Below, piece after piece: positions 44,573 to 51,892 of a stretch of 64,000 bases of DNA. The stretch comes from Romanomermis culicivorax (taxonomy: Eukaryota; Nematoda; Enoplea; Mermithida; Mermithidae). The DNA lies in the NCBI GenBank assembly GCA_963922205.1, contig CAWUHX010000345.1, positions 1-64,000 on the forward strand, given 5' to 3'. Position 1 is the stretch's first letter. Each line of letters starts with the position of its first letter. A program made the translations under genes and the position numbers. The notes below the pieces were generated by a model. The model worked only from the letters and a program-made list of their open reading frames with translations. It searched no databases and was not told the origin of the DNA.

Positions 44573-45823
44573 AGTAGGAACCAGAAATCTATCTCAGTCT
44601 ACGACTCTATCGATTTCTTGTTCACAGCGCCATCGCCCGTCCAAGACGCCATGTTGGCCATCTGGTCAGTTGACCTGGCCAAGAAATACCCGCATTTGCC
44701 GTGGACTCTGCTCAACGAGCCATCACATGTCGAAGCGCTCACGGCCGCTGACGTGGTGCTCGCGGCACCTGTATCAATGCGACTCTTACGACCCGACGTC
44801 GCCCGACGGGCACTCGAGTTCATCGCCAATGGGACTATCACAATCTCGCCCGTCGAGAAGTTCTTATTGGATGGGGAGCCATCCTCGCCTTCGGTCGATG
44901 CCGTCCGCCGAGCAGTCGAACAGGCCAGTCGGATCCTCCTGCCTGCTGTCGCCGCTACATCACCGACAGCAGCGCCACCTGTTGCCCCTACACTGCCAAC
45001 AGAAATGGACATTACTGCTTCCTCGCCTCCGGCTAAGGAACCCGCATATGATCCTACAACGCCGGCAACAGCCCAAACCACACCGTCGGCACCAGCCCAA
45101 AGTACAACATTGGCACCAGCCCAAAATACATCGTCGGCAACAGCCCAAACTAGATCGCCGGCGCCAGCCCAAGAGACATCTCAGACCGCTGCGACCAAGT
45201 CGCCCGTCGTCGAACACATGGCCGTCGACAAGACCTTACGTCCAGTTAACAAAGATGTCAGCATTGTTGAGGAATCTCCATTCCCAACGGCAGTCGCCCC
45301 ACAGTCGCCAAAAGTCGGTATCCTCCGGGAAATCCACCCGTGTGGTGGATTGGTCCTCGATTCTCGTCTGACAGCGACGAAGAAGAAATCTGACACTGCC
45401 CCTCAGGCCAGATTTGTGAAAATGGGTGAACACTTGCAAATCACGTTTGTACAGTTGTTTTTGATAATAAAATTGACCTTGGTAACATCACTGTTTCTAG
45501 GGGTGAGTTTGTCAGCACTGGCGGCTCAGTATCAATTTTGTGGTCTCTCAAGAAGCGGGCATCCACTTGAGTTACCCCAGCGTGTAGAGTGTAAACCACC
45601 GCAATCTTCATGGAGTCCGCGGCGCATGAATGTTACGGTGTATGTCCCTAGCTCAGACCCAATTACAACCACAGCGTGGAAATGCACATTGCGCACCCGC
45701 AAAGTCTGCACCAACACTGGTTTCTTCGGCTCTAGGGGCATTACTGCAGACGTCATTACCACTCGGCACTTAGCGCCTGCGGCCTGCACGCTAGCACATC
45801 GCACTAAGATGTTTGGCTCTTAA
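44573..45823 (+). CDS. Linker domain plus N-terminal part of an envelope-like glycoprotein
   Basis: The first ATG is at 44618 and gives 401 codons. Residues 1-120 resemble no domain I can name (helical, 'LAKKYPHLPWTLL'). About residues 149-187 are a 10-residue repeat 'xAPAQxTxSx' encoded by five 30-bp units. At Met 269 (45422) a classical signal peptide begins, with a hydrophobic core 'LFLIIKLTLV' and an Ala-Ala end. A Cys-containing ectodomain start with an N-glycosylation site (NVT) follows. The frame ends at a TAA (45821-45823), but the same frame reopens immediately and carries the rest of the glycoprotein. The stop is therefore more likely a nonsense mutation in this copy than a natural end. 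A TTTCTTGTTCACAG at 44615-44628 resembles a splice acceptor. Confidence 0.7.
   Translation, partial: SRNQKSISVYDSIDFLFTAPSPVQDAMLAIWSVDLAKKYPHLPWTLLNEPSHVEALTAADVVLAAPVSMRLLRPDVARRALEFIANGTITISPVEKFLLDGEPSSPSVDAVRRAVEQASRILLPAVAATSPTAAPPVAPTLPTEMDITASSPPAKEPAYDPTTPATAQTTPSAPAQSTTLAPAQNTSSATAQTRSPAPAQETSQTAATKSPVVEHMAVDKTLRPVNKDVSIVEESPFPTAVAPQSPKVGILREIHPCGGLVLDSRLTATKKKSDTAPQARFVKMGEHLQITFVQLFLIIKLTLVTSLFLGVSLSALAAQYQFCGLSRSGHPLELPQRVECKPPQSSWSPRRMNVTVYVPSSDPITTTAWKCTLRTRKVCTNTGFFGSRGITADVITTRHLAPAACTLAHRTKMFGS
45062..45176 (+). repeat. 30-bp coding minisatellite
   Basis: Five units of about 30 bp encode the 'APAQ' repeats of the linker upstream of the envelope-like signal peptide. The consensus is near 'GGCACCAGCCCAAA' plus a variable half. 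Confidence 0.75.
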
Positions 45824-45868
45824 AAACTTGTCGGCATTTGCCCTGGCTTTTATAGCACAAACCAAACA

Positions 45869-51157: not shown

Positions 51158-51892
51158 CTGTTTGTAACGCAAATTGTCTGCCGGCACGGGGCACCGCAGA
51201 TTCTTCAGTCAGATCGTGGCACTGATTTCACATCAAAACTGATGACTGAGATCACTGCGATCTGCGCAATGAAGAAGATCCACTCTACCGCCTATCATCC
51301 AATGACCAATGGCGAGGTGGAAAGAGCTAATCAGACGCTAGCCACACGGCTACGTATGTATGTTCATCACGGACATACTGATTGGGATGAACACCTACCA
51401 TACGCTGTGTTTGCCGTCAATATCAGCATGAATGAGTCAACAGGGTACTCGCCCTTTGAACTCATGTACGGTCGCACACCCATGCTCCCTGTTGATGCCG
51501 CGCTCTAATTCAACCCTCCGGCCCATATCATTAATGTTTCCTCATATGATATGGAGGTCAAACGTCATTTCACGAATGCGTTAACCTTAATCCAGAGTCG
51601 GATTGAGAAAGCACAGGAGGCCTATGCACGGTCTTACGACCGGAGGGCACATGATGTCTCGTACAAAGTAGGGGATCAGGTGCTCAAACTGCGCACCTCC
51701 AGCAAACGTGGACTCACTCCTAAATTGCTGCCCATCTACGATGGGCCCTATCTTGTAACAAGTGTGGCATATCCCAATGTCACACTTCGTCTCGAGACGG
51801 ATCAGGAAGACACTGTACATGTCAACCAGCTTCGACGTTACGTGTCCCCTGAACCACCGAGTGAAGCAGAGGATACACCTCCCACTTCATAG
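51158..51892 (+). pseudogene. Integrase core remainder and C-terminal domain, same frame, broken by two stops
   Basis: This continues the integrase frame after the TGA at 51155. It holds the second Asp motif ('QSDRGTDFTS'), the Glu motif ('YHPMTNGEVERANQTL') and 'GYSPFELMYGRTP'. A second in-frame TAA at 51506-51508 follows, and then an SH3-like C-terminal domain ('YKVGDQVLKLR', 'KLLPIYDGPYLV', 'VHVNQLRRYV') to the stop at 51890-51892. The related copy at 31739-35260 has a sense codon at both nonsense positions (TGC and TCA), which supports recent point mutations. No chromodomain is visible. Confidence 0.85.

Follow-up and report, generated by a model that had tools for sequence, protein, structure and literature searches.

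In Metaviridae, the family of the Ty3/Gypsy long terminal repeat (LTR) retrotransposons, the envelope protein (Env) is encoded downstream of integrase (profile of the International Committee on Taxonomy of Viruses, PMC7879559). The env found in this place in errantiviruses, such as gypsy of Drosophila, likely came from a baculovirus (PMC12440569). The element analyzed here lies in 64,000 nucleotides of DNA from the nematode Romanomermis culicivorax (GenBank assembly GCA_963922205.1, contig CAWUHX010000345.1, positions 1 to 64,000 of the forward strand; hereafter the window). It is a defective member of Metaviridae in which Env is placed inside gag-pol. The whole element spans 37761–53928 and is thus larger than the stretch 44573–51892 considered in an earlier annotation made from the sequence alone (the original prediction). 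Like gypsy and its relatives, it has LTRs with TG...CA ends, a 4-bp target repeat, gag, a captured env, and protease (PR), reverse transcriptase (RT), RNase H (RH) and integrase (IN) in this order. However, its Env is of class III type and lies between gag and the protease.

Other LTR elements have also acquired env from elsewhere. The env-like proteins of the BEL/Pao elements Roo, Tas and Cer7 are traced to Gypsy, phlebovirus and herpesvirus sources, and their position downstream of the polyprotein sets these elements, as described, apart from the one in the window (PMC7642597). The mosquito element Anakin, described in the same paper, shares with the window element a glycoprotein of Jingchuvirales type, in its case from a chuvirus, but Anakin belongs to BEL/Pao, whereas the window pol is of Gypsy type. 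A 2023 survey of Jingchuvirales-derived glycoproteins states that there was no clear evidence of capture by Gypsy or Copia elements (PMC10084718). Bdelloid TelKA encodes a paramyxovirus F-type protein as open reading frame (ORF) 3 (PMC5408684), unlike the in-frame class III Env of the window. MDG1-group elements also have a membrane protein outside the usual env place, but their sORF2, a separate small ORF upstream of gag, encodes a FAST-like protein of 63–107 residues that serves cell-to-cell transfer and is not a viral glycoprotein (PMC11952523). Additional ORFs up- or downstream of gag-pol are mentioned as well (PMC8220671). In titles and abstract openings we came across no LTR element described with env placed between gag and pol; subscription journals were thinly covered in this search, and absence is no proof. 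The gag-Env-pol layout is new within the known family Metaviridae. The existence of a lineage whose gag-pol frame includes env means that an alternative layout is viable, and it directly prompts the question how such a protein is arranged in the membrane and processed. In addition, a glycoprotein of negative-strand virus type is now seen in a Gypsy element, for which the 2023 survey had no clear example, and the tandem retropepsins are themselves worth studying.

Env between gag and protease in the window copy and its relatives

A frame-2 run (44573–51889) encodes a signal peptide, the Env ectodomain, a transmembrane helix (TM), protease, RT, RNase H and integrase (Table 1). The original prediction had placed a signal peptide from 45422 onward and a strong TM here, with no boundary between TM and protease. 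This was borne out: a methionine stands at 45422, the signal is hydrophobic and ends in ALA, the TM occupies 47087–47164, and neither a stop nor a frame change separates it from the protease. The succession of domains given in the same annotation holds, but it made no mention of three internal stops, one inside the Env ectodomain and two, TGA at 51155 and TAA at 51506, within integrase. Likewise, the proposed gag-env-pro-pol order stands, but in this copy gag is in frame 1, outside the env-pol frame. With three in-frame stops the copy is unable to make the polyprotein. Chance is ruled out by the open run 45824–51154, which has 1777 codons, whereas no open frame exceeded 249 codons when the element was shuffled base by base 100 times. 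It is also ruled out by the window Env piece: a profile from which the window had been excluded gives it 537 bits, and at most 4.6 bits in 500 shuffles of the piece. A programmed −1 frameshift joining the gag frames was considered and rejected. No canonical in-phase slippery heptamer is present at 43900–43960 or 44560–45371, and the frame changes therefore look like damage.

As in other Metaviridae, LTRs bound the internal region, gag comprises capsid and nucleocapsid, and PR, RT, RH and IN follow in the usual order. Env, however, occupies 45422–47164, ahead of an integrase that starts at about 50786, and the gap from the integrase end to the 3′ LTR is about 600 bases. This position counts against a typical Metaviridae genome and leaves the affinity of pol untouched.

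We then looked at relatives, all of them predicted proteins. The search with the window Env region returned four complete gag-Env-pol polyproteins, and an Env-only profile added four more (P0008 and the short P0005–P0007). In the RT protein search, 7987 candidates were scored, 2271 of them at E ≤ 1e-60; the best 120 of these 2271 were used, and the counts of relatives and the term "closest" rest partly on them. This search added P0029, P0051, P0065, P0090 and P0107 with PF24664 (with P0001, six of the 120 listed rows). At least 13 relatives have this Env. Seven of the 13 combine gag, Env and pol, each in one polyprotein of 2327–2973 residues and in the order gag–CCHC–Env–PR–RT–RH–IN. Env is also ahead of the protease in P0051, which starts within Env, and in P0065, while P0008 consists of linker, signal and a truncated Env. 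Among the relatives found, none of the Gypsy type has its env after integrase. Sister copies with env in that position or in another frame had been named as what would refute the original prediction; with seven relatives sharing the full order and two more having Env before the protease, sequence comparison supports a gene order that is not a local rearrangement.

Three kinds of relatives differ from this pattern. P0005–P0007 end soon after the TM; in P0005, a weak match to DUF5641 (BEL/Pao integrase end; 0.015, below cut-off) precedes Env, so that env appears to lie downstream in a BEL/Pao-like case. P0045 is an open gag-pol of 1903 residues without an Env match. Its RT is 62% identical to the window RT, and it has signal-like and TM-like segments at residues 509–588. 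P0044 begins with a TM-like stretch ahead of the protease.

The glycoprotein, the proteases and their histories

Env matches Pfam Monjiviricetes_fusion (PF24664) with 51.3 bits against a cut-off of 27, the match covering only profile positions 311–449 of 653. Both the sequence profile and a fold search link it to class III proteins, namely herpesvirus gB, vesiculovirus G and the glycoproteins of negative-strand viruses. The fold search was made with a model of the relative P0003 (pTM 0.37, residues 418–531 below 50 in predicted local distance difference test, pLDDT), which resembles the gB/G fold with low TM-scores and large root-mean-square deviation (rmsd). An earlier AlphaFold run on five alignment rows had a pLDDT of 39.4, and a PDB sequence search with the window Env piece alone gave one match (E 0.97). 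Hairpins in the model suggest GFFGS (45719) and ASWDG (45947) as candidate fusion loops. Cysteine number and a class III-like ectodomain are kept even though the Envs are only 30–40% identical to that of P0003.

A host membrane protein was rejected as the source of the ectodomain, since the matches are viral fusion proteins. The baculovirus F and phlebovirus Gc types were rejected too, in agreement with the original prediction: no such Pfam match was obtained, and class III folds top the fold searches. A negative-strand RNA virus source, offered as a guess in the original prediction, fits PF24664 as well as the top matches in BFVD, although these do not tell which way the transfer went. Scans with an Env pattern yielded 26 pattern matches in viral contigs and 69 in prokaryote genome contigs, with no relatives among either, and searches with P0029 and P0003 in viral contigs gave no matches.

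How long has Env accompanied pol? For the RT tree, 114 of 130 rows had enough RT and were thinned to 56. Eight Env-bearing rows, the window included, form one group with P0044 and P0045 (100/98). The Env tree was built from 13 of 14 rows, leaving out the truncated P0008; virus glycoproteins were not among the rows. In this tree, P0005–P0007 form their own branch (100/100), joined with P0003 and P0004 (88/94). Across ten rows, the RT and Env trees have five of seven splits in common, a level reached by one of 5000 random trees, and the RT topology is not rejected by the Env data (p 0.251, ten rows). This agreement shows that Env has long traveled together with pol.

Where the original prediction had a single retropepsin after the TM, two retropepsin-like domains are present. 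The first is weak in Pfam alone (0.023); with a profile made from the relatives and the second domain it scores 34.0 bits, compared to 1.9 for the best of 500 shuffles. P0029, the closest relative among the matches listed, has three such domains in tandem (residues 1363–1894) with active-site letters DTG, DIH in the middle domain, and DSG, while one was seen in each of the remaining relatives. The protease tree was poorly resolved, with long branches, so that the first window protease and the extra P0029 domains may go back to one duplication or to separate ones. The integrase rve domain was found in Pfam at 0.0014, below cut-off. We take the RT relatives and the Pfam domains found to be of Gypsy type.

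Proposed topology and alternative explanations

These observations probably describe a Gypsy lineage with a class III Env of the Monjiviricetes type, a type of negative-strand RNA viruses, inside one polyprotein, gag-signal-Env-TM-PR-RT-RH-IN, that threads the endoplasmic reticulum (ER) membrane. Gene order, homology, resemblance in fold, co-inheritance of Env with pol, and the hydrophobic segments support it. With one hydrophobic segment on either side of the ectodomain, the chain would simply enter the membrane and leave it again, and both Gag and Pol would face the cytosol. We infer single-chain translation, two cuts and fusion activity. A single long polyprotein would be translated, and its internal signal sequence would send the Env ectodomain to the ER lumen. 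Signal peptidase would cut after the signal and free Gag; the TM would halt transfer, leaving Pol in the cytosol, where the element protease would release it from the Env tail. Env would then give particles entry to new cells. Structural polyproteins of flaviviruses and alphaviruses likewise carry a cytosolic capsid, an internal signal and an envelope ectodomain with its TM in one chain; the analogy is one of topology only, as the genes are unrelated. That Gag, class III Env and Pol are all born together at the ER membrane as one chain, with the protease duplications as part of processing, we regard as nearly an even proposition.

A number of points weigh against the single chain. The window copy itself has three stops and a gag displaced into another frame. 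Candidates in the Env-region and RT searches were limited to 977–3110 residues, which favors long single frames. As predicted proteins, moreover, the seven relatives with gag, Env and pol are in one frame by construction, and the single frame is thus partly a product of the search. P0065 begins at a methionine just ahead of mature Env, with about 2 kb of contig outside the protein, and P0008 begins 299 residues before Env without gag; some members may thus split gag from env-pol. P0002 has extra hydrophobic stretches inside the protease and behind RT. In five of 14 env-less controls RT starts within 460 residues, leaving little upstream protein to test. The P0003 model is weak (mean pLDDT 65.3), and its fold matches have TM-scores of 0.16–0.34 in the listed rows, with large rmsd. 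In the RT tree P0003 and P0004 pair elsewhere (94/86), although forcing all twelve rows together is not rejected (approximately unbiased test, p 0.115). Finally, to our knowledge, a fixed 1:1:1 ratio of Gag, Env and Pol would be unusual.

Alternatively, a spliced subgenomic mRNA or internal initiation could give rise to Env, with an env-less gag-pol mRNA giving the enzymes and the single frame being only a compact layout. Five of eight proteins (window at 45422, P0001, P0002, P0029 and P0107) have a methionine within the signal or immediately ahead of it, which would suit such an arrangement. In P0003, P0004 and P0090, however, the nearest methionine is 96, 81 and 47 residues ahead of Env, and in seven relatives, albeit ones detected as long single frames, Env is in frame with both neighbors, an arrangement that splicing would not require. 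Judging by the methionine positions, some members likely have an internal signal, while others may have a separate start; on balance we consider splicing or separate initiation rather unlikely. It is more doubtful that the glycoprotein has given up entry and now anchors Gag-Pol to membranes or has another intracellular role. P0045, in the same RT clade, lacks an Env match yet retains signal-like and TM-like segments, which speaks for such a role, but the conserved cysteine number and ectodomain type argue otherwise.

Regarding origin, the env family may have been first in BEL/Pao, downstream of pol, with Gypsy elements acquiring it from there and not straight from a virus of the negative-strand RNA type. 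The P0005 Env, behind its DUF5641 match, is 39% identical to that of P0003, and in the Env tree P0003 and P0004 group with P0005–P0007. On the other hand, the latter three form a separate branch, the BEL label comes from one weak match, and a tree without virus sequences gives no direction; we think this route unlikely. A one-off origin of the window order, by rearrangement or nested insertion that brought env between gag and pol, might be suggested by the rearranged relative at 30463–37239, whose LTR-like arms are oppositely oriented. With seven relatives in the same order and the Env and RT trees in agreement, it was rejected as highly improbable.

Element boundaries and the rest of the window

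Self-comparison of the window revealed a 1.4-kb direct repeat with 97.6% identity, refined to two LTRs that are identical in 1390 of 1424 alignment columns. The ATTG target repeat is present on both outer sides of the element. Errantiviruses, too, have a 4-bp target repeat. For gag, the match to Pfam Ty3_capsid (3.4e-5, 23.8 bits) is under the curated cut-off of 29.1; the match to P0001 gag is strong (phmmer, 7.2e-34), and a CCHC knuckle is present at residue 401. The proline-rich linker is without a Pfam match or a significant match to P0001–P0004, and the linker in the env-pol frame is without a Pfam match.

Table 1. Features of the element, in window positions
Feature	Positions	Strand	Evidence or remarks
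5′ LTR	37761..39183	+	TG...CA ends; ATTG directly outside
Candidate primer binding site	39184..39203	+	TGGCGAGGCTGG... immediately after 5′ LTR
gag: capsid and zinc knuckle	42664..43947	+	frame 1
Proline-rich gag-env linker	43908..44572	+	open frame, third frame (frame 3)
Linker in env-pol frame	44573..45421	+	open frame
Signal peptide	45422..45520	+	Met 45422, hydrophobic core, ALA ahead of mature start (near 45521)
Env ectodomain, N-terminal part	45521..45820	+	hmmsearch with A1, 3.6e-26
In-frame stop TAA	45821..45823	+	inside Env ectodomain
Env ectodomain, remainder, class III fusion glycoprotein type	45824..47086	+	Pfam PF24664, 6.2e-14
Env transmembrane helix	47087..47164	+	hydrophobic segment
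First retropepsin-like domain, DTG at 47351	47300..47686	+	profile 34.0 bits, 5.6e-12
Linker, Ser/Arg-rich from about 47762	47687..48298	+	open frame
Second retropepsin, DTG at 48347, common to relatives	48299..48634	+	Pfam PF13975, 1e-7
Reverse transcriptase (YLDD at 49610) and RNase H	49121..50401	+	RVT_1 6.1e-33; RT_RNaseH 1.9e-34
Integrase with stops 51155, 51506	50786..51889	+	Integrase_H2C2 2e-21; tblastn of P0001 reaches 51871
3′ LTR	52505..53928	+	ATTG directly outside

Ahead of gag, at 40379–40707, there are two 61-base copies that are 74% alike and lie 268 bases apart. Ahead of the 3′ LTR, CTTTTTCGAAGGACTGCCGTG or a near-match occurs twice (52040–52060 and 52484–52504), the second copy running into the LTR.

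The broken relative at 30463–37239, the one relative in the window, has pol from within the protease onward (31738–35451, 78.5% identical) and shows no Env match. Its LTR-like arms, 30463–31732 and 37239–35958, are 85.5% identical. Positions 1–23587 hold roughly two and a half head-to-tail copies of a unit about 9.37 kb long, with 99.3–99.7% identity, which may reflect a recent tandem duplication or an assembly effect. Rfam and tRNA scans gave no matches, and thus no RNA or tRNA genes in the flanks. An open frame at 57847–58818 matches zf-RVT weakly (0.0031, below cut-off) and may be the terminal part of an element of LINE type.
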